From: an uncultured Flavobacteriales bacterium | Lineage (GTDB): Bacteria; Bacteroidota; Bacteroidia; Flavobacteriales_G; Salibacteraceae | DNA length: 64,000 bases | Reading direction: 5' to 3' | Assembly (NCBI GenBank): GCA_913020435.1 | Contig: CAJVZZ010000002.1 | Coordinates: forward strand, 62,001 to 126,000 | Shown here: piece by piece, positions 51,668-63,076 of the stretch | How positions within the stretch are numbered: position 1 is the stretch's first letter | Layout: each line of letters opens with the position of its first letter | Notes under the pieces: generated by a model | What the model was told of the DNA's origin: nothing | Database searches by the model: none | What the model saw: only the letters and a program-made list of their open reading frames with translations | Translations under genes and position numbers: made by a program

Positions 51668-51889
51668 GAAGTTTTTCTGTTTAATACAGAGCCGAAAATG
51701 GAATTATTTTAATCATTTTTAAAACCCGTCGATAGTTAAAGGAAAAATCACGTTTTCAGCCAGTTATACTTTTATAAAAAGACCTAATTGTTAAATTAAA
51801 AAGGTACATTAGAATGGCAAAAATACTTTGAGGGGACAAAAACAAAAATGAACCTGTATTTTTTCAACGTTCAAAGGTTAGTATCACTT

Positions 51890-54796
51890 TTACTCAATTT
51901 GCCGTTCAGCTAGCTTATGAAATTGCCCTTTCAAAGCCATAAGTTCATCAAAAGATCCACTTTCAATTAACGCCCCTCCTTCCAGATAATAAATTTTATC
52001 TGCGTTAATAATAGTAGAGAGCCTGTGAGCGACAACAATTCTAGTTACATTAAGATTATCTAAACTCGCTGTTACTATAGCTTGGGTTTCATTGTCCAAT
52101 GCACTGGTAGCTTCGTCAAAAATTAATATTTTCGGATTGTGGACTAGAGCCCTAGCAATCATTAGACGTTGTTTTTGCCCACCTGATAAAGTTCCCCCAT
52201 CCTCGTTAACAAGCGTATGCATTCCCATAGGCATACTTAAAATATCATGATCAAATGCCGCAGAACGAGCTGCTTCCCACGCATCGTTTAATGTTAATTG
52301 AGATGATGATCCTACTATATTAGAAAAAATATCACCTTCCATTAAATCACCATCCTGCAGAACTACACCCATATTACGACGTAACATTTTTGGATCATAA
52401 TGCTCCATGTCTTGTTTATCAAAATAAATTGAGCCCGTCTCAGGTTTACTAAAACCTAATAACAATCTAATGAGAGTTGATTTTCCTGAACCAGAAGGAC
52501 CTACCAAAGCGATATACTCTCCACTTTTAATAGAAATGTCTAACTCTTTTATAATGAGTGGAGCATCAGCTTTATATCTAAAGTTGATATTATTCATTTC
52601 AATTGATCCCGTGAATTTTGTTGGAGCTGACTTTAGAGTTTCACTTTCAGGCAAGGTCTCTAAAATCGGTCGTAGACGATTATAAATAACTGGTAACTCA
52701 AGTAATTTGACTAAAGAAGCGCTAAGGCCAATAATGGCACCTACAAAACCTCCATATGCCGCTAGAAAAGCAAAGAATTGTCCTGTTGTTAAATCGTTAG
52801 TTGTCGTTTTAACGATTACAAAAAGAAAAACACTTGATAAAATACCTAAAACAGAATTAACAATGGTTTGAGCATTTTGTAATTTGGATAATGATATCGC
52901 CGTTGTTTTGGCTTTCATAAAAGCTTTAAACCAAAACAAAAACGCTCTTGATTCTGATCCGCTTGCTCTAAATTGAGGCACACCATTTAGAATTTGAAAG
53001 GCAATCCCTTCCAACTTCCCTCCCTGTTCCATATAGATGGCTTGTAATTTAAGTTGTAGCCGAGCAAACAAACTTATAACGGTAATTTGTACTAGACTAA
53101 AAACGATAGCCAACCCGGCCAATGAAGCACTATAATAAAACAAGAGACCCAAATTTAGAACTGAAAAAGCAAGGGCAAGAACTGAGGTAATAGCTGTTCC
53201 AGATATTATCGATTTCATTTCATTGATCCCCATAGACCTTGAGGCCATGTCTCCGGTGCTATATTTTGAAAAGAAATCAGTAGGAAGGTTAAGTAATCTA
53301 TCCCATAATGCAGATTGCGTTTTATAATCAAGCCTATTTTCAGCTCTCATCAACGCAATTTCCTTTACCAATTCGAACCCGACAGTACCAAAGGAAATAG
53401 CCACTAGTGCAAAGGCAATACTCAACAACTGCTGTTTATCAGCGCTGGGAATAACGAAGTCAAAAATTTGGGCAGTTAAAATGGGGAATAGAAGCATGAA
53501 TAAGCTACTAATAAATCCCATTGCGAAAACTCGGATTAAATCAACCTTATTCTTTTCAAGAGTAAATACAACAATGTCTTTTATTGTAACAGGTCTATCT
53601 GATGGGAAAGGCTTGTAAAAAACGAAGGCCTGTTGTTTAAACAAATCACAATTATCAGAAGTTATATGAATAACTTCCTCAGTTTTTGAATTTGCAAAAG
53701 ACATCGAGCCTTTGTGAGGAATTACCGCTAACGGATCGCCGTTATCATCATTTATATAGGCCAAAAAAGCATCTTCCGTATTTCTTTCAAACCAATCGGG
53801 TTCTAGTAATATCTCTCGATATCGAATACCATTGTAACGGCATATTTCAGATAAGAAATCCTCATTTTTAGAATATCCTTTTGGAAATTCAATTTTGATT
53901 TTATCAAATTTCAATACCATTGAAACGGCATTAAACAAATTATCGTGAGACTCAAAATCAACCTCAAGTGTGTCCTCTTTTTGAAAAACTTTAGAAAACG
54001 ATTTTAATGATTCAGAGAATTCCTCTTTCTCCAATCTGTACTTTTCAATTAGCCGCTTGGTTTCCTGTGATTCTCTATGCTTAATTTCATAAGCATCACT
54101 TCTTAAAACTACTAAAAGCAGCTCTTGAAGCCCATTCCAAAATTCATTTTCCGAAACAACATCAATAGTTTTAGAGGTTGTCAATTTAACTCCGTCTTCA
54201 AAAGCGAGATACGATCTTTTACCAACAGGAAAAATAACACCATCAGTGTTGACATCAAGATGATTATTGAATTTACATTTCCCTATTTCATGAAATCTCA
54301 CCCAACTTAGTTCATGATTCCCTACGATGGAATTTTCAGGAGAACAAAAAGATGTTGTAAAACTTAAAAAATCGTGAATAAGGGGCATATCAATGCTGGT
54401 ATCATCAGCAACGCCTTCATACAAACGATTAACCCATGATTCAATTAAAGGAATAAGAACTGGTCCAAACTCTTCAGTATTAGCTAACTCTTTTATATCC
54501 TTAATGCTCAAATCAATGATGACAGACTCAACTTCAGCATCTATTAAAAACGCCAAATTGTTACCGAAATCTAGAGCTGCTCCAAAGATTAATTCACCTT
54601 CAAGGATTTGCGTGAAATTATCCAACCGCCCAACAGCCTCCCCTTTTTCCACTTTGGAAGTAGATAAATTCATAGAACCTTCCAAAACGAAATGAACCTC
54701 TAAAGGATCAATCGAAAGAAATGGATCAATAACTGATTGAATCCTTTCGTGACCTCTTTTTTTAAGTTCTTCTATTAGAGCTTGATTATCCAACAT
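51890..54796 (-). CDS. NHLM-type ABC transporter permease/ATPase with ~400-residue N-terminal extension, no peptidase
   Basis: A 968-residue protein. The first ~400 residues hold no C39 peptidase. They begin with a cyclic-nucleotide/cupin-like stretch (about 15-110: DPLEVHFVLEGSMNLS, EGELIFGAALDFG) and a region of unknown fold. A six-helix ABC exporter membrane domain (about 415-700) follows, then an ATPase domain with GPSGSGKST, signature LSGGQKQR, FDEATSALD and the AHRLSTI switch. This matches the second transporter of NHLM bacteriocin systems (TIGR03797 type). It probably pairs with the C39-bearing transporter upstream, which ends two bases before it starts. Last gene of the cassette, co-directional with rpsL. 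Confidence 0.88.
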   Translation of the reverse strand: MLDNQALIEELKKRGHERIQSVIDPFLSIDPLEVHFVLEGSMNLSTSKVEKGEAVGRLDNFTQILEGELIFGAALDFGNNLAFLIDAEVESVIIDLSIKDIKELANTEEFGPVLIPLIESWVNRLYEGVADDTSIDMPLIHDFLSFTTSFCSPENSIVGNHELSWVRFHEIGKCKFNNHLDVNTDGVIFPVGKRSYLAFEDGVKLTTSKTIDVVSENEFWNGLQELLLVVLRSDAYEIKHRESQETKRLIEKYRLEKEEFSESLKSFSKVFQKEDTLEVDFESHDNLFNAVSMVLKFDKIKIEFPKGYSKNEDFLSEICRYNGIRYREILLEPDWFERNTEDAFLAYINDDNGDPLAVIPHKGSMSFANSKTEEVIHITSDNCDLFKQQAFVFYKPFPSDRPVTIKDIVVFTLEKNKVDLIRVFAMGFISSLFMLLFPILTAQIFDFVIPSADKQQLLSIAFALVAISFGTVGFELVKEIALMRAENRLDYKTQSALWDRLLNLPTDFFSKYSTGDMASRSMGINEMKSIISGTAITSVLALAFSVLNLGLLFYYSASLAGLAIVFSLVQITVISLFARLQLKLQAIYMEQGGKLEGIAFQILNGVPQFRASGSESRAFLFWFKAFMKAKTTAISLSKLQNAQTIVNSVLGILSSVFLFVIVKTTTNDLTTGQFFAFLAAYGGFVGAIIGLSASLVKLLELPVIYNRLRPILETLPESETLKSAPTKFTGSIEMNNINFRYKADAPLIIKELDISIKSGEYIALVGPSGSGKSTLIRLLLGFSKPETGSIYFDKQDMEHYDPKMLRRNMGVVLQDGDLMEGDIFSNIVGSSSQLTLNDAWEAARSAAFDHDILSMPMGMHTLVNEDGGTLSGGQKQRLMIARALVHNPKILIFDEATSALDNETQAIVTASLDNLNVTRIVVAHRLSTIINADKIYYLEGGALIESGSFDELMALKGQFHKLAERQIE

Positions 54797-54798
54797 TC

Positions 54799-57003
54799 TT
54801 AAGTTTTAATTAACTGTGAATATTTTCCATTCAACTCCAGTAACTCCTCGTGTGTTCCCCTCTCAGCGATCCTACCCTGATCTAAAACAATAATTTCGTC
54901 GCTGTCTCTTATTGTACTTAAACGATGGGCAACCACCATAACTGTACATTTTCGTTTTTTAATATTTTGGTCAATAATTAATTCTGTAGTCGGATCTAAC
55001 GCACTTGTTGCTTCATCAAGAATTAGAATGGAAGGGTTATTCACTAACGATCTAGCGATTTCTATCCGCTGTCGTTGGCCTCCACTAAAATTCTTACCCG
55101 ATTCATCAACCTTAGATTCGTAACCTCCATTTTTAGAGCTAATTACATCATGAATTGCCGCATCCTTGCAAGCACTTACCAATTGTTCGTCAGAAATGCT
55201 TTTATCCCACAGGTTTACTACCTCACCAACAGAACCCTCAAATAGAAATACATCTTGAGAGACCATAGACATTGAATTATTAATTACCTGACGTGGGTAT
55301 TGATCCCTTGGTTTTCCATCAAATAAAATTTCACCTTCCCAAGGTTCATAAAAACCGATTAACAATTTAGCCAAAGTAGACTTACCGCTCCCTGAACCTC
55401 CAACTAGGGCAATCCTTTCTCCAGGGAACACCTTCAATGAAAAATCTTTGATAAGAGGCGGTGCTACCTTACTGTAACCGAATGTCAGGTTTTTAAACTC
55501 AATATATCCATCCAATTTTTCCGAAACTGCATCAAGATTATCTTCATTAATCTCAACTGTACGCATTACTTGTGGATCGGGATCTGAACGCATTACATCA
55601 TCAATACGATTCATATCGCCCTCCATTTCCTGCATTGTGCTTCCTAGACCAAGCAAGCTTTCTATCGGCATCGTGAAGCTAATTACTAAACTTTGAAACG
55701 CAACCAACATACCTACTGTAATCTCGCCATCCATTATTTTCCATGCTCCAATGGTCAGAATTATTGAGTTTTGAAGGATTCCGAGAGACATTGGTAATAA
55801 GCCAAACTTCATCTCAAACAATTCCAGCTCCATGGTTTGATTAAATACCTTGGTAAAAGTTCCACTCCATTTTACGAAAAAGTCATTTTCCCTACCCATG
55901 GCCTTCAATGTCTCTATGGACTTTATCCCACCGAGTGTGGTTCCATACAATTTCCCTGAAGAAACTGATAGGCTAAAGTATTTCTCTATACGAACATTAC
56001 CAATCAACTTTAAAGCACCAATATTCATCAATGCAAACGCCAGTGTTATCAGAGAAAGAGAAACATCATATTGAAGCATGAGTGTGAAATAGAAAATAAT
56101 TACAAGTAAATCCAGTAAGTTATCTGCCAATTGACCCGTAATTAAATTTGAAATATCTGCGTTTAGCCCAACTCTACTTGCTATTTCCCCTTTATTTCTT
56201 TGATGAAAAAACTGAATAGGAAGCTTTAGAAGGTGCCAAAAATAATTTGCGGATGAAACTACTTCTAGTTTATTCTCAGCCTTTAAAAGAACATGCAGCT
56301 TTAAATACTGCAAAAATGCTCTTAGTGCGGCAGTTAACAGCATACCTCCAACTAATGGCCAAAGCCAATAATCAGCGCCACCAATTAAAATTTCATCTAC
56401 AAAAACTCTTGAAAAAACAGGTATTACTAAACCTGGAATTACTAATAATAAACCTATTAAGAATAAATACAAAATTGGACGTTCGTAGCCTTTAAGCCTT
56501 GGTTTTAAACCATTTATAAGTCCACCCTCAATTCCAGATTTCTCAAAATCTGGACCGGTCTTAAACTCTAAAGCGATACCTGTAAAAGAACCGTTAAACT
56601 CTTCAAATGTCAATGTTCTGTGACCTATCGCAGGATCGTTTAGGTAAAAATTTCCATTCTTTATTCCTTCTAAAACTACAAAGTGATTAAAATTCCAATG
56701 AATAATTAATGGGAAACTCATGTCCAGCAAACTGCCGAGTTCATCTACCTTGAATCCTTTACACTCCATTCCATGCTTACGTGCTGCTTTTAGAATGTTT
56801 GTAGCCTTACTTCCATCACGATTTACTCCAGCATCTTCACGCAGTTTTTCTAAAGTCTGATGCCTGCCAAAATAAGCCATTACCATCTTCAGGCTTGCTG
56901 CCCCGCATTCCACAGCCTCTAGCTGTATCACAGTTGCCGAATTCGCCCTTGGATTGGGCGAATTCCACATTAACTTTTCTTCTTTTGTAGGTTTTTTGGA
57001 CAT
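54799..57003 (-). CDS. Peptidase-containing (C39) bacteriocin ABC exporter
   Basis: A 734-residue transporter. The C39 protease domain (about 20-150) has oxyanion Gln27, nucleophile Cys33 in VECGAAS, His107 in NFNHFVVLEG and Asp123 in LNDPAIG, so the full catalytic set is present. The membrane domain (about 175-470) and ATPase follow, with GGSGSGKST, FSGGQRQR, LDEATSALD and AHRLSTI. The family cuts double-glycine leaders and exports the freed peptide (NHLM TIGR03796-like). It lies nine bases after the HlyD gene. The GG-leader peptide at 60160-60378 is the obvious substrate. Confidence 0.93.
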   Translation of the reverse strand: MSKKPTKEEKLMWNSPNPRANSATVIQLEAVECGAASLKMVMAYFGRHQTLEKLREDAGVNRDGSKATNILKAARKHGMECKGFKVDELGSLLDMSFPLIIHWNFNHFVVLEGIKNGNFYLNDPAIGHRTLTFEEFNGSFTGIALEFKTGPDFEKSGIEGGLINGLKPRLKGYERPILYLFLIGLLLVIPGLVIPVFSRVFVDEILIGGADYWLWPLVGGMLLTAALRAFLQYLKLHVLLKAENKLEVVSSANYFWHLLKLPIQFFHQRNKGEIASRVGLNADISNLITGQLADNLLDLLVIIFYFTLMLQYDVSLSLITLAFALMNIGALKLIGNVRIEKYFSLSVSSGKLYGTTLGGIKSIETLKAMGRENDFFVKWSGTFTKVFNQTMELELFEMKFGLLPMSLGILQNSIILTIGAWKIMDGEITVGMLVAFQSLVISFTMPIESLLGLGSTMQEMEGDMNRIDDVMRSDPDPQVMRTVEINEDNLDAVSEKLDGYIEFKNLTFGYSKVAPPLIKDFSLKVFPGERIALVGGSGSGKSTLAKLLIGFYEPWEGEILFDGKPRDQYPRQVINNSMSMVSQDVFLFEGSVGEVVNLWDKSISDEQLVSACKDAAIHDVISSKNGGYESKVDESGKNFSGGQRQRIEIARSLVNNPSILILDEATSALDPTTELIIDQNIKKRKCTVMVVAHRLSTIRDSDEIIVLDQGRIAERGTHEELLELNGKYSQLIKT

Positions 57004-57012
57004 TAAATAATT

Positions 57013-58251
57013 CTAATCAACCAACGGTATTACCAGACTAATTGGACGCTTATTTTCAATAATTATTTTCGCATTACATAACGTTCCAGATTTCACTTCT
57101 ACTTCAGGTCCGTCTCCAGAAGTCCATTCAAAACCAGAAACACCCTCACTAACCTTTAAACTTACTCTTACCGCAATTGGAGGCAAGCCAGTAAAGAAGG
57201 ATTCTACAAGACGCTTGTTCTGAAGAGTATTAAGCATTCCTTCAAAGGTTGTTGGATAATCAGAAACATGAATCACTGAGCCTTTTATATATCCGAATTT
57301 TTCTACTTCAACTGTTGAAGGAGAAATTTGAACTTCCATACCGACTTTCACTTTTTTTCCTTCTCTTGAATTTACATAAAGAATTGCTTCAATTTCTTCG
57401 TTTAAATCAGATCGCTCAATACTCACCAAAAATGTACCTGGAGATACTATGCTACCAGCATTAACCATCAATTCTACAATCTTGCCTGAATAGGGGCTTT
57501 TAATTTCTGAATTTAATTCATAACGAGCTTTAAATTCGCCAAGCTCACCTTCGAGCGCAATTATTTGTCCATCGAGATTGTTTAGTTCTATCTCCATTTC
57601 TTTAGACATTTCAAATATTGACAGCTGCAACTCTTCAAGTTCATTTTTCAAAACCAAGTTCTGTTGTTCCAGCTCGAACTTCATAATCTTAGCATCGTTA
57701 AGAGTTTCAGTAGTAATCAATCCTGTTTCAAGCAACTCTTCTCTAGATTTAATTTGAGTCTCAACAAATGATATCCGCTCAATATTTTTTGCAATTCTAT
57801 TTCGCTTGTTTTCTGAGTTTTTTCTTAACAGCTGCTTTTTCAATTCAAAATCTTTCTCGTCGAACCCCTGTATGGTCTTGTACTTGTTTTTCAAATGGAA
57901 CAATTGCTGCTCCATATGGTGGATTTTAAGTTGCAATTCAGGTTGAGCAACTTTTGCCAACACTTCTCCTTTCTTTACAATCATCCCGGGTTTCATAACA
58001 ATCTCAGAAACCTGTCCGTTTGCTATTGCAGGCACCTCCATTACTCCACCAGAAATCTGTAAAATCCCTTCTCCTTGAACATTAATAGGCAGCTTTCCAA
58101 ATACACTCCAAATAATAATAAAAATGAACAACACAACTATTGACAAGGCCGCAATCCAATTATTAGGAGAAATGATACGAACCATTTCATTGAGACTATC
58201 AGGCGATTGCAATTTGTCCATTGCATCTTTTCGAAACAATTTATTTTTCAT
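57013..58251 (-). CDS. HlyD-family membrane-fusion protein of the peptide exporter
   Basis: A 412-residue adaptor with one N-terminal membrane helix (about 35-55, IAALSIVVLFIFIIIWSVFG), a biotinyl-lipoyl-like segment (ANGQVSEIVMKPGMIVKKGE), a long coiled-coil hairpin (about 110-245), the second lipoyl half (IKSPYSGKIVELMVNAGSIV) and a beta-barrel domain. It resembles NHLM system secretion proteins. It would join the ABC exporters to the TolC channel across the periplasm. It overlaps the TolC gene by eleven bases. Confidence 0.88.
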   Translation of the reverse strand: MKNKLFRKDAMDKLQSPDSLNEMVRIISPNNWIAALSIVVLFIFIIIWSVFGKLPINVQGEGILQISGGVMEVPAIANGQVSEIVMKPGMIVKKGEVLAKVAQPELQLKIHHMEQQLFHLKNKYKTIQGFDEKDFELKKQLLRKNSENKRNRIAKNIERISFVETQIKSREELLETGLITTETLNDAKIMKFELEQQNLVLKNELEELQLSIFEMSKEMEIELNNLDGQIIALEGELGEFKARYELNSEIKSPYSGKIVELMVNAGSIVSPGTFLVSIERSDLNEEIEAILYVNSREGKKVKVGMEVQISPSTVEVEKFGYIKGSVIHVSDYPTTFEGMLNTLQNKRLVESFFTGLPPIAVRVSLKVSEGVSGFEWTSGDGPEVEVKSGTLCNAKIIIENKRPISLVIPLVD

Positions 58252-59854
58252 TCTGCGCCGTTATTTTTGGTAAAGAGAATAATTCATCTACGTCCACAAC
58301 AATCTCTTCTAGTTCAGTGATTTTCATCAAATTACCTGATTCGAATCTAAATCTTATTATGGCAGAATTTAAAGCCAATTTCAATCGATTGAGAGAAGTT
58401 TGAGCAAAAGCGTAGTTGTTTTGCACCTGCACTAAATTAACCACCGTCGATGTTCCCAGTTGCAATTTCAAATATTCATTCTTTCGTGCTTGCAGATTAA
58501 ATTCAACTGATTTTTGTCCTTGCTTCACCGCTTCATTAAAATAGACTATATCGTTAAAATACGAAGACAATTGTTGTTGGATATTCAGTTCCAAGTTACG
58601 AACTGCTTCTTGAGACATTCTTTTTTTTGCGAGCGCTGCGGCATAAGCACCTTTAGTCGAGTTCATGCCCATGGGCCACTGGAAAACCAACCCCGCCCTG
58701 TAGCTCATCCCTGGATAATTTGAATACAATGGAGCTACATATTGTTCAAAGGAAGTAGATTCATAAATACCATTATAACCCATTCCTAGAGACACGTCTA
58801 GTTTTGCTTTGTTTCGCTGATTAGCATAGTCTATTTCTCTATCATTAATCGTAATATTTTTCTGAGCTGCTAAGTAATCCCTGCGAGTTGTAGATGCCTT
58901 ATTCAGCCAAAAAGACAAATAACCATCTTCAATCTCATTTGCCAATGAATCTATTGCAAACTCTATTGAATCAAAATCATAATTCTTTAGTTCTTCTGCT
59001 GAAACTCCCATTGCCTCCAGAAGCTGGTTCTGCGCAGTTAAATAATACGACTTAGAGCTAAGTACAGTAGCATTCTGACTACTCAAATTTGCATTTATAA
59101 ATGTTAACTCAGCTTTTGGAATGATATCCTTATCGGAGAGCTGGCGAATCTGATCCTCAAATTCTTCATAATTCTTCTCTATAGACTCTTGAATTTCCAA
59201 TTCTTTTCTTGCAGAAATAACATTGAGATAATTAAGGATTACAATATATGCCTGACTATTAATTGCGAAAGTATAATTCAATTGAGACTGACTTAATCTA
59301 AGGTTCTCAATATCTATTGTTGCCCCGTAGAATTTCTTTCCCCTACCTTGCAACAACGGCTGTGTAACATCAACAAAAACGCGACCTCTATTGGTCACAT
59401 AATCTCCAAAACCTGCATTTGAAAGCCCCTCAAACAAAGCGTCGCGCCCAAAATTCATCACACCAACCGAAGTCCTAACAAGAGTACCTATCTGAAACCG
59501 CTTTGAAACCGCTAATTCATATTCTAAAATATCGGTTTCAAAAGAAGGGCTTTCTGCATAACCTAGCCAGCCATTGCGCTGATCAATTGTGGAGGGGCTT
59601 ATATTGTAACTTTTATTTATTCCAAAATCTAAAACTGGATTAAATTCTCCACTAGCAACCTGAACTTGCCCTTCCTGAAAATCCATTCCAATTTCACTGA
59701 TTAAAACATTAGGATTCTTTTTGAATGTCGTTTTCAGTAAGACTCCCAATTCCCCACTATTTTGAGCTGAAGCAGGCACAATAGCTACCAAAACTACAAA
59801 ACCAAATAATAGTTTCGAAAAACTTTTTAGCAGAAAATTATTTTGATAAAACAT
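58241..59854 (-). CDS. TolC-family outer-membrane efflux protein
   Basis: About 537 residues with a signal peptide (LLFGFVVLVAIVPASAQ) and two OEP repeats with long coiled-coil helices, for example QSQLNYTFAINSQAYIVILN and RKNEYLKLQLGTSTVVNLVQ. This is the outer-membrane exit duct. The ATG at 59854 was preferred over a GTG at 59875 because it directly precedes the signal peptide. A TATGTTTG promoter box lies 49-56 bases upstream, so the exporter operon may start here rather than at the peptide gene. Confidence 0.87.
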   Translation of the reverse strand: MFYQNNFLLKSFSKLLFGFVVLVAIVPASAQNSGELGVLLKTTFKKNPNVLISEIGMDFQEGQVQVASGEFNPVLDFGINKSYNISPSTIDQRNGWLGYAESPSFETDILEYELAVSKRFQIGTLVRTSVGVMNFGRDALFEGLSNAGFGDYVTNRGRVFVDVTQPLLQGRGKKFYGATIDIENLRLSQSQLNYTFAINSQAYIVILNYLNVISARKELEIQESIEKNYEEFEDQIRQLSDKDIIPKAELTFINANLSSQNATVLSSKSYYLTAQNQLLEAMGVSAEELKNYDFDSIEFAIDSLANEIEDGYLSFWLNKASTTRRDYLAAQKNITINDREIDYANQRNKAKLDVSLGMGYNGIYESTSFEQYVAPLYSNYPGMSYRAGLVFQWPMGMNSTKGAYAAALAKKRMSQEAVRNLELNIQQQLSSYFNDIVYFNEAVKQGQKSVEFNLQARKNEYLKLQLGTSTVVNLVQVQNNYAFAQTSLNRLKLALNSAIIRFRFESGNLMKITELEEIVVDVDELFSLPKITAQNEK

Positions 59855-59902
59855 TATTCGAAACGTGACTAGCACTAAATTGAGTTATTCTCTTATTTGC
59901 AT

Positions 59903-59910
59903 CAAACATA
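59903..59910 (-). promoter_or_regulatory. Putative -7 box (TATGTTTG) for the exporter operon
   Basis: An exact TAnnTTTG match on the - strand, 49 bases before the TolC ATG and downstream of the peptide-gene terminator. No clear -33 box. Confidence 0.45.
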
Positions 59911-60063
59911 ACCAAAACAATAATTAACGCATCTAATTTTCAAGAATAATTTAGAATATAAGCAACAAAACAAATTACAGTATTTCCTTTTTTTCTCGTT
60001 TCTGTAAAATGACGTCGATTCCAACATATTTACACACCCGAACAGAATTTATTTAAGCAAAAA

Positions 60064-60083
60064 AAAGACCCAAAAGGGTCTTT
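60064..60083 (-). terminator. Intrinsic terminator between the GG-leader peptide gene and the exporter genes
   Basis: AAAGACCC and GGGTCTTT pair perfectly around an AAAA loop. On the - strand a run of T follows, so it should stop transcription 77 bases after the peptide stop codon. The T-rich other side could also work on the + strand, though nothing is transcribed into it from there. Confidence 0.8.
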
Positions 60084-60159
60084 AAATTTTTACAGTAGAA
60101 GCTTATATTGAAAATGTTGGCAGTAGACATAATTTGATTCCTACACCCAACAATATTCT

Positions 60160-60378
60160 CTAGCGTCTACCACCACGTCCAACGTTTATTGTTGGAGCAG
60201 CAGGAGCTCCCACAACAGGAGCAGGAGGATGATGAGCCTCTGGATCAAATTCTTTTTCGCTATCGCGACCACGTGCACGCTCATTCTTTCTAGCACCACC
60301 GCTTCCAGGACTACCTTTTGGTAGACCTGCTCCACCGCTTACACCTTCTAATTCATTTTCGTTTAATTCCTCGCTCAT
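60160..60378 (-). CDS. Double-glycine-leader peptide, putative secreted bacteriocin or signal peptide
   Basis: A 72-residue precursor. The 16-residue leader has a canonical double-glycine pattern: Leu at -12, Leu at -7, Val at -4, Gly-Gly at -2/-1 (ELNENELEGVSGG). The predicted mature part has 56 residues, starts AGLPKGSPGSGG, contains EAHHPPAPVV and a PAAP segment, and ends INVGRGGRR. It has no Cys or Trp and is rich in Gly, Pro, Ala, Arg and acidic residues, so it is probably disordered. Leader features fit TIGR01847-type bacteriocin signals. The C39 exporter cluster lies directly downstream on the same strand. Killing activity is not shown; a signalling or surface role is equally possible. 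Confidence 0.8.
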   Translation of the reverse strand: MSEELNENELEGVSGGAGLPKGSPGSGGARKNERARGRDSEKEFDPEAHHPPAPVVGAPAAPTINVGRGGRR

Positions 60379-60745
60379 AATAATTAAATTTTAAAGATTA
60401 ATATTCTATAAAGTTATACAGATTTTTCAATAAACAGTTATTTGCTTAAATTTAAATAGAAAAATCACGCGACATTCTTCATGAAAAAGAGGGCCAATCG
60501 TCCTAAAGTAACATCCTGAATTACAGGACAAAAATCAATAAAAATGTAATTCCACAACTTTCCATATTTCCAAATAAATCGCAATTTCATTAGCCCCAAC
60601 AAACACAGAACTCTCAAATGACTAACCTCCAAAATTCAGTAAAATCAACCACAGAAAAAAAACATCTATTCACCCAAAATGAATCTTTAATAAGTTATTA
60701 ACTAGCCATCTCTGCAGCTACAATGTTGCCTTTATTTGCAAATAT
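60379..60745. other. Divergent intergenic region between peptide gene and uvrD/pcrA
   Basis: A 367-base AT-rich gap that must hold promoters for both divergent genes. I saw no exact TAnnTTTG box oriented to the peptide gene. A short inverted repeat TCCTG-AATTA-CAGGA lies near 60514-60528. No further small GG-leader frame was found here. Confidence 0.4.
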
Positions 60746-63076
60746 ATGAACACGACTTCCTATTTAGATGAATTAAATCCTGAACAAAGAAAAGCTGTAG
60801 AGCACACAAAAGGTCCAGTAATGGTTATTGCTGGAGCTGGCTCTGGTAAAACTAGAGTGTTAACCTATCGAATCGCTCACATGGTCAGAACAGGAGTTGA
60901 CTCCTTCTCTATACTATCGTTGACATTTACGAATAAGGCAGCCAAAGAAATGAAGGAACGGATTTCAAAAATTGTAGGTCCTTCCGAATCCAGAAATATT
61001 TGGATGGGAACTTTTCACTCTGTATTTGCGAGAATATTGAGATCCGAAGCTCACCTTATCGGTTACCCTTCCAATTTCACAATTTATGACACCGACGACT
61101 CTAAGAGTTTATTGAAGAGAATAATTAAAGAGAAAAACCTCGACGATAAAGTGTATAAGCCAAACTTGGTTTTAAACAGAATCTCCTCTGCTAAAAACAA
61201 TCTTATTTCGGCAGCGAACTACAAAAACAACCCCACTATCAGTAAAGAGGATGTTCAAAGTAAAAAACCAGAATTGGGTTATGTATACGAGCAATACGAA
61301 AAACGTTGTTTTAAAGCAGGTGCCATGGATTTTGATGACTTGCTATTTAAAACGAATGTTTTATTTCGAGACCATCCACAAGCATTACTTAATTACCAAA
61401 ACAAATTCCAATATATTTTAGTGGATGAGTACCAAGATACGAACTACAGCCAATATCTTATTCTAAAGAAACTGGCTGCACGTTTTGAAAACATCTGTGT
61501 TGTTGGCGATGATGCTCAAAGCATCTATTCTTTTAGAGGAGCAAATATTCAGAATATTCTAAACTTCAAAAAAGAATACCCTGACGTAGCTACTTTCAAG
61601 CTAGAACAGAATTATCGATCTACTCAAAACATCGTAAACGCAGCAAATAGTATAATTCGGAAAAATCAAGAACAGATTAAAAAAAATGTATGGACATCCA
61701 ACGATATTGGGGAGAAAATCAGAATTATTAAAACATTAAGTGACAACGAAGAGGGCTACGAAGTGGTTAGTGATATTTTTTATCGATTGAATGATGAAAA
61801 GCGACCAAACTCTGATTTTGCGATTCTTTATAGAACCAATTCACAATCGAGATCAATGGAAGAGGCTCTTCGTAAGAAAGATGTTCCTTATCGGATTTAT
61901 GGCGGCCTGTCGTTTTACCAGCGAAAAGAAATAAAGGATTTATTGGGTTATTTTAGGATGGTGATCAACCCAAATGACGAAGAAGCTTTAAAGCGGGTAA
62001 TTAATTATCCAAAACGAGGAATAGGAAATACTACTCTTGATAAGATATTCTTAGCTGCTAACCAACACGAAAAAAGTGTTTGGGATATTCTCGAAAACCC
62101 AGTAAATCATGGTCTTCAATTTAGCAGCGCAGTATTAAACAAAATCTTTTCATTTAGAGAAATGATTTCAACTTTCAGCCAAATGGTTGAAACCACCAAC
62201 GCTTATGAATTAGCGAGTAGAGTTGCCAGTACCTCCGGAATCCTCAAAGAACTCTACGCTGATAAAACCGTAGAGGGAGTTTCAAGATATGAGAATATTC
62301 AAGAATTACTTAGCGCAATTAAAGAATTTAGCGAGAATGATTTGGTTCCCGAAGGAGCCGATATCACTGAGAATGAAGACGATCGCAGCCTTTCGAATTA
62401 CATGAAGGATATCGCGTTACTCACCGATGCTGACAACAACAAAAAAGACACTAATGTTGTATCATTAATGACTATCCACGCTTCTAAAGGATTAGAGTTT
62501 CCCTATGTATATGTTGTGGGAATGGAAGAAAATTTATTTCCTTCTCAACTTTCGGTAAACTCTAGAACCGAATTAGAGGAAGAACGTAGACTTTTTTATG
62601 TAGCAGTAACTCGAGCTGAAATAAAAGCGACTTTATCTTGGGCAAACACAAGATATCGTTGGGGAAACCTTACGTATTGTGAACCTAGCAGATTTATTGA
62701 AGAAATTGATGCACAGTTTATAGAACAGCCCAGCTCTTCTAAAAATGAAAGTGAATCTGACTATTCATTCGCAGGTGGATTAAACAATCCAAGTAGTACT
62801 TTTTCGTCACCAAGTCCCTCAAAACCCGCTACAACTCGAAGAGTTAACAAACCGACTTTCAAACCCTCAAAACTAGTTACGGACGCAAACTTTAAAGCTA
62901 GTGATAGTAGCCTTATAGAAGCTGGACAAAATATACTACACCAAAGATTTGGAAAAGGCAACGTAGCTGAATTATCAGGAAATGGAGAAAACAAAAAAGC
63001 ATTGATAAATTTTGAAAACGCTGGTCAAAAACAACTACTTCTTCGGTTCGCCAAACTTCAAATTTTACCAGAATAA
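60746..63076 (+). CDS. UvrD/PcrA-type superfamily 1 DNA helicase
   Basis: A 776-residue 3'-5' helicase. It has the Q-motif LNPEQRKAVEH, Walker A AGAGSGKT, LTFTNKAAKEMKERI, DEYQDTN, GDDAQSIYSFRGA, LEQNYRST, the later TIHASKGLEFPYVYVVGME and VAVTRA. The C-terminal tail (about 665-776) is low-complexity Ser/Pro-rich and ends in a PcrA-like RNAP-interaction (Tudor-like) segment GQNILHQRFGKGNVAELSG. It acts in repair and in clearing replication-transcription conflicts. UvrD and PcrA cannot be separated by name here. Confidence 0.93.
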   Translation: MNTTSYLDELNPEQRKAVEHTKGPVMVIAGAGSGKTRVLTYRIAHMVRTGVDSFSILSLTFTNKAAKEMKERISKIVGPSESRNIWMGTFHSVFARILRSEAHLIGYPSNFTIYDTDDSKSLLKRIIKEKNLDDKVYKPNLVLNRISSAKNNLISAANYKNNPTISKEDVQSKKPELGYVYEQYEKRCFKAGAMDFDDLLFKTNVLFRDHPQALLNYQNKFQYILVDEYQDTNYSQYLILKKLAARFENICVVGDDAQSIYSFRGANIQNILNFKKEYPDVATFKLEQNYRSTQNIVNAANSIIRKNQEQIKKNVWTSNDIGEKIRIIKTLSDNEEGYEVVSDIFYRLNDEKRPNSDFAILYRTNSQSRSMEEALRKKDVPYRIYGGLSFYQRKEIKDLLGYFRMVINPNDEEALKRVINYPKRGIGNTTLDKIFLAANQHEKSVWDILENPVNHGLQFSSAVLNKIFSFREMISTFSQMVETTNAYELASRVASTSGILKELYADKTVEGVSRYENIQELLSAIKEFSENDLVPEGADITENEDDRSLSNYMKDIALLTDADNNKKDTNVVSLMTIHASKGLEFPYVYVVGMEENLFPSQLSVNSRTELEEERRLFYVAVTRAEIKATLSWANTRYRWGNLTYCEPSRFIEEIDAQFIEQPSSSKNESESDYSFAGGLNNPSSTFSSPSPSKPATTRRVNKPTFKPSKLVTDANFKASDSSLIEAGQNILHQRFGKGNVAELSGNGENKKALINFENAGQKQLLLRFAKLQILPE

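Follow-up and report, generated by a model that had tools for sequence, protein, structure and literature searches.

The precursor gene and its exporter

The window (the whole stretch of 64,000 nucleotides analysed here) contains on its minus strand a 72-codon gene for a precursor peptide (60160..60378), followed on the same strand by the genes of an exporter. The precursor gene was assigned from an open reading frame with a double-glycine (GG) leader and from homologues of this leader that occupy the equivalent place in two further genera. Its translation consists of the leader MSEELNENELEGVSGG followed by the core AGLPKGSPGSGGARKNERARGRDSEKEFDPEAHHPPAPVVGAPAAPTINVGRGGRR. The 16-residue leader (60331..60378, minus strand), which is predicted to be cleaved after the GG by a C39 peptidase, has Leu at -12 and -7, Val at -4 and Gly at -2 and -1, exactly the fit to the double-glycine consensus that a first-pass annotation of this DNA had described. 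Examined as a class II bacteriocin, the precursor has the GG leader, and the bacteriocin leader models matched it weakly and below cut-off: TIGR01847 with an E-value of 0.043 and 14.5 bits, just under its cut-off of 15.7, and Pfam Bacteriocin_IIc with an E-value of 0.083. Such weak scores are expected for so short a motif.

The 56-residue core (60163..60330, minus strand) is hydrophilic, with a GRAVY of -1.06, a net charge of +4 and a predicted mass of 5.69 kDa in its unmodified form. The translation bears out the earlier description of a mature part that lacks Cys and Trp, contains HHPP and ends in GRGGRR. Pfam and NCBIfam searches with this core and those of the related precursors described below returned no known family, only weak matches to the leaders.

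In the cleavage motif of NHLP/N11P precursors described by Haft et al. (PMC2887384), positions 1, 4 and 6 are acidic, 2 and 7 are Leu, 3 is Ser/Thr, 10 is Val/Leu and 12-13 are Gly-Gly. The window leader contains this motif in the form ELxxxxLxxVxGG, as ELNENELEGVSGG (E1, L2, L7, V10, G12 and G13), and agrees with it at every position except for an Asn in place of Ser/Thr. The NHase- and Nif11-like leader domains themselves (TIGR03793 and TIGR03798) gave no match in the window precursor or its seven relatives. On the simplest reading, the window leader would correspond only to that half of an NHLP/N11P leader that serves export and cleavage, and the domain that normally precedes it is missing. 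The motif is too short to demonstrate shared descent with the NHLP/N11P leaders.

The exporter genes lie 3′ of the precursor in the order TolC, HlyD, ABC1, ABC2 (all coordinates on the minus strand). The TolC-like outer membrane factor (58241..59875) matches PF02321 (1.3e-29) and, below cut-off, TIGR01844 (1.4e-12); its start is uncertain, at GTG 59875 or a later ATG. Its gene overlaps that of the HlyD-type adaptor (57013..58251; TIGR03794, 338.1 bits against a cut-off of 156.2). After a gap of 9 bases follows ABC1 (54799..57003), which has C39 peptidase, permease and ATPase parts (TIGR03796, 985.8 bits against a cut-off of 853.3; PF03412, 5.7e-34), and after a further 2 bases ABC2 (51890..54796), a permease/ATPase without C39 (TIGR03797, 790.7 bits against a cut-off of 709.4). 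ABC1, ABC2 and HlyD all score above the curated equivalog cut-offs for NHLM membership, and the Pfam C39 and OEP domains are present, which confirms the set of C39 ABC, second ABC, HlyD and TolC genes that had been reported next to the precursor. Residues C33, H107 and D123, which we take to be the C39 catalytic residues, are present in the window ABC1 and fall in columns conserved among its relatives.

A search of the window's own genome (98% complete) with the precursor profile matched the window gene only, and a PF03412 search found ABC1 as the sole C39 peptidase. Since these searches gave a single peptidase and a single precursor, the pairing of cargo and exporter is hardly ambiguous, and a different exporter or a different cargo was rejected on the same results. 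The sequence establishes that the secretion system is complete and has one cognate precursor. We considered the possibility that the reading frame is spurious or decayed and that the exporter serves some other cargo. The core has no recognised homologue outside its own genome, and its GC content is 0.50, compared to 0.36 for the window. However, the leader homologues in two other genera, the single precursor and single peptidase found in the genome, and a terminator directly downstream of the gene make this explanation highly improbable. A chance open reading frame is ruled out by the leader homologues together with the codon-level purifying selection seen in the paralogues of the relatives (see below).

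The terminator is a strong one of the intrinsic type and lies between the precursor and the exporter genes (60064..60083, minus strand), about 76 bases past the precursor stop. It has an 8-bp stem, a 4-nt loop and a T run (fold z = -3.95). A hairpin and T run 25 bases after the stop was also found for two of the four precursors of one relative (G028) and for both precursors tested in another (G008). Judging from these terminators, the precursor appears to be transcribed as a separate unit, and the exporter would be expressed at a lower level or independently.

The site between uvrD and rpsL

As had been noted previously, the cassette in the window is flanked by the housekeeping genes rpsL and uvrD/pcrA. 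The best match of ribosomal protein S7 is chain 7jil, a Flavobacterium johnsoniae protein, which agrees with a placement in Bacteroidota. An NHLM ABC1 above cut-off was found in three of the 35 genomes of the family, representing three genera: the window's own genome (G000), G008 and G028. In all three, the cassette is situated between uvrD/pcrA and rpsL-rpsG-fusA and has the order precursor(s), TolC, HlyD, ABC1, ABC2. The site is empty, with uvrD directly adjoining rpsL, in 27 of the 30 family genomes in which the rpsL region could be read. The segment that is missing from genus mates was delimited by BLAST of the empty sites of G032, G033 and G034 against both flanks, and spans about 51676..60760 of the window (no strand assigned). 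Homology to the empty sites stops near 51675 and restarts near 60761, so that the extra segment reaches just into the start of uvrD. At 60746-60761, the window uvrD begins with MNTTSYLDELN, compared to SYLDELN right after the GTG in the empty-site genomes, placing the cassette boundary here.

In a tree built from rpsL, rpsG and part of fusA, G028 is basal in its clade, followed by G008, and G000 is found deep within a genus in which it alone has the cassette. Between G000 and G008, uvrD (163 residues) and ABC1 are both 79% identical; between G000 and G028, the corresponding values are 63% and 71%. The identities of exporter and host gene thus run roughly in parallel. These data fit both an old presence followed by repeated loss and an exchange among relatives through recombination within the conserved flanks. 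The GC content of the cassette equals that of its surroundings (0.360, compared to 0.366 for uvrD), which argues against recent acquisition from a distant donor, though not from a relative. A viral or distant mobile origin was rejected, based on this GC content and on a search of viral contigs, in which no ABC1 relatives were found. In a Microscillaceae MAG (SKYG84; L031, 4302-12181), an NHLM-type ABC1 lies a few kb from rpsG and fusA, with other genes between; this may be a coincidence or an old neighbourhood.

Precursors and selection in related genomes

The cassette of G028 encodes four tandem precursors of 78-80 residues. G008 has at least three, in an array interrupted by a contig gap: contig C124 carries one whole and one cut gene and contig C176 one cut and one whole gene, and the cut ends may belong to the same gene. 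Between the genera (G000, G008 and G028), the leader is kept, and the cores have no recognisable relation to each other. The first-pass annotation had taken the peptide to be a genuine GG-leader cargo of an NHLM-type exporter and had made this depend on whether homologues that keep the leader occur near C39 genes. Such homologues were found, and the recurrence of the same leader at this site in two further genera upholds the assignment. Weak precursor matches in G009 and G004 contain stops and have no GG leader, and were rejected.

The eight complete precursors that were compared have Cys-free cores of 44-61 residues, of which 29-39% are charged and three to six are Ser/Thr. All of the cores are hydrophilic, with GRAVY values from -0.4 to -1.7, and a charge-hydropathy rule, worked by hand from the composition, probably places them on the disordered side. 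An Arg-containing C-terminus is common to G000, G008 and G028. Net charge and His content are not common across the genera: the cores are acidic in G008 and in most G028 copies, and Trp, which is lacking in the G000 core, is present in those of G028. Metal binding through HHPP, which had been offered as one possible function, was rejected as a shared feature, since the G028 cores have no His.

In the comparisons between paralogues, most of the changes were at third codon positions. The three closest paralogues of G028 (a-c) differ by a dN of 0.07-0.23 and a dS of 0.55-1.3 (dN/dS about 0.12-0.22), and the two complete copies of G008 by a dN of 0.08 and a dS of 0.91 (dN/dS 0.09). The sequence LPDYMxxMSKQEIGQVMRxPDFVGxPEWQEIxDLN is nearly invariant across three of the G028 copies. 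The low dN/dS between paralogues identifies the cores as constrained proteins, and leader and core are both constrained in the relatives. By analogy, the single G000 gene would be under the same constraint.

A fourth cassette, cut at its 3′ end by its contig, was found in a MAG labelled Sphingobacterium thalpophilum (L021). It has the same gene order and a precursor of 75 residues with a Cys-free core. In a tree of ABC1 sequences, L021 and the three family members form one clade with a support of 0.999, inside the NHLM exporters of Bacteroidota.

Modification, export and function of the cargo

No recognisable maturase or immunity gene was found in the cassettes of G000, G008 and G028 or in the visible gene context of L021, in line with the first-pass annotation, which had seen no modifying enzyme in the window cassette. 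Beyond precursors and exporter genes, none of the four holds any further gene that could be recognised. The same annotation had allowed for maturases elsewhere in the genome. The core could be a RiPP that is modified by an enzyme encoded at a distance: NHLM exporters usually carry modified cargo, unlinked maturases are known (PMC2887384), and the window's own genome encodes one SPASM protein. However, no YcaO was found in this genome, and the SPASM protein occurs in 34 of the 35 family genomes, with or without the cassette, and is therefore not tied to it. An unlinked maturase of these two classes was consequently rejected. Furthermore, the cassettes contain no maturase, the long leader domain is missing, and the absence of Cys and the scarcity of Ser/Thr in the core make thioether and azole chemistry unlikely on the basis of composition. 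Overall, we consider modification by an unlinked enzyme quite improbable.

NHLM-type exporters are rare, and were found, at the thresholds used, in 9 of 396 genomes of the class and 30 of 395 of the phylum. The NHLM loci examined in other families, within the class or the phylum, mostly contain long-leader Nif11 or NHLP precursors, with other genes nearby. The cleavage motif starts at residue 3-7 in the present precursors, compared to about 40-120 in most NHLM-associated precursors, offsets that depend on the start codon chosen. The window system is similar to NHLP/N11P systems with an NHLM exporter (TIGR03793/03798 with TIGR03794/03796/03797; Haft et al. 2010, PMC2887384) in its three-gene exporter above cut-offs and in its GG cleavage motif. 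It differs in that the precursor has neither an NHase- or Nif11-like leader domain nor a core rich in heterocyclisable residues, and in that the cassette has no TOMM, LanM or radical-SAM maturase. The best reading is that the cassette was derived from a RiPP exporter.

Taken apart from any guess at function, the cassette is likely to be a type I secretion system devoted to a small peptide that is not modified. The precursor would be transcribed mostly alone, by virtue of its own terminator, with the exporter operon following. The C39 domain of ABC1 would then cut the precursor after the GG, and ABC1/ABC2, HlyD and TolC would carry the 56-residue core out of the cell, unmodified and probably disordered. 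A leader without an N-terminal domain would fit a cargo that no longer meets a maturase. If this is correct, an NHLM exporter needs no modified cargo, a 13-residue cleavage motif alone can suffice as a leader, and the arrangement would offer a simple way to secrete small proteins from Gram-negative bacteria.

Our first guess, a tentative one, is that close relatives use the released peptide to compete with one another, with no immunity gene dedicated to it. It is suggested by the patchy presence of the cassette at a fixed site, by the genus-specific cargo on a conserved exporter, and by the existence of immunity-free GG-leader toxins in the phylum, such as the bacteroidetocins (PMC6671954). 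The resemblance to the window system lies in unmodified GG-leader peptides of Bacteroidota that are paired with a C39 ABC exporter and lack an immunity gene (Coyne et al. 2019, PMC6671954). However, bacteroidetocins have two or more Cys and are accompanied by a TM protein and, in most cases, a thiol oxidoreductase (PMC6671954), whereas the window system has Cys-free, charged cores and a full set of HlyD, TolC and second ABC. None of the cores has Cys, and no genes for a thiol oxidoreductase or a bacteroidetocin-type TM protein were found in the cassette. A killing role is opposed by the lack of Cys and of any hydrophobic or amphipathic stretch in the cores and by the acidic nature of those in G008 and most G028 copies, which set them apart from typical membrane-active class II peptides, and by selection between paralogues that is purifying, not diversifying.

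The absence of bactericidal features, the purifying selection on the cores and the combination of GG leader and C39 exporter would also suit a pheromone-like signal between cells. ComC is a GG-leader peptide with a role of this kind, and the ComC model weakly matched three of the eight precursors. However, the cores are long for pheromones and entirely different between genera, and no linked histidine kinase, regulator, sensor or receptor gene was found in any of the cassettes, so that signalling seems rather unlikely. About equally doubtful is a structural or scavenging role, in which the core would be a small secreted protein of the surface or matrix or would bind a ligand. Very hydrophilic, charged and constrained cores, the tandem copies and the Arg-containing tails are consistent with such a role, but His-rich or HHPP features are not common to the genera, and the distribution is patchy. 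Both roles are less likely alternatives to competition. For the role of the peptide, a natural comparison would then lie between empty and filled sites and between three cargo sets on conserved exporters. A broader and more speculative reading, which may perhaps hold, is that a lineage of Bacteroidota came to use a RiPP exporter for secreting small proteins that are unmodified and disordered, with the leader reduced to an export signal; the cargo would then represent a new class of extracellular peptides that work by a mechanism other than membrane damage.

The literature describes GG-leader peptides that stay unmodified and have C39 exporters, as well as gene clusters that connect one type of exporter to diverse precursors through the GG motif alone (PMC3140520, PMC10352776). 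The bacteriocin-type signal domain proteins of Treponema denticola are similarly tandem GG-leader proteins, secreted and adjacent to an ABC exporter, but have 167-614 residues and linked lipoprotein genes; no bactericidal activity was detected for the secreted proteins (PMC11879956). Short GG leaders beside a TIGR03796 exporter above cut-off also occur in Bradyrhizobium (L062, L064 and L068) and in a Clostridia MAG (L096), with cores that differ in being Gly/Asn-rich, His-rich or equipped with zinc-finger-like Cys. The short-leader peptides next to such exporters in Bradyrhizobium include Cys-free ones. The Bradyrhizobium exporters with short-leader cargo are far from the window clade in the ABC1 tree, and short-leader cargo therefore probably arose more than once, which limits the novelty of the window system. 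The first-pass annotation was correct in every sequence feature that it stated and in doubting a RiPP, but its proposal of a secreted peptide of a new type is only partly supported: the peptide stands as a GG-leader cargo of an NHLM-type exporter with no maturase gene in its cassette, but newness of type claims too much, given the known NHLP/N11P motif and the short-leader Cys-free peptides of Bradyrhizobium. The system is real and well formed and belongs with the NHLM/GG-leader systems; its cargo is unusual, though not unique.

Several other precursor families were observed near NHLM exporters. In Bradyrhizobium vignae (L068, NZ_RDQF01000076.1), several minus-strand ORFs encode short GG-leader peptides with near-identical, repeat-like cores (FFDLSNLSNNIVAQANTATQVGVAQGG...), and one copy is His-rich (HHGHHHGHHG...), beside an NHLM ABC1 above cut-off. 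In three Clostridia MAGs (L086, L089 and L096), NHLM exporters are accompanied by large tandem families of precursors that have a GG leader, zinc-finger-like CxxC cores and about 12 to 46 residues ahead of the motif. Finally, in another family of the class, the last 1.2 kb of L017 (minus strand) encodes several peptides that combine a GG leader with a hydrophobic, bacteriocin-like core (EFVVSAVVISGIVTATATATLTYTIGKDAK and relatives), with an NHLM exporter nearby.
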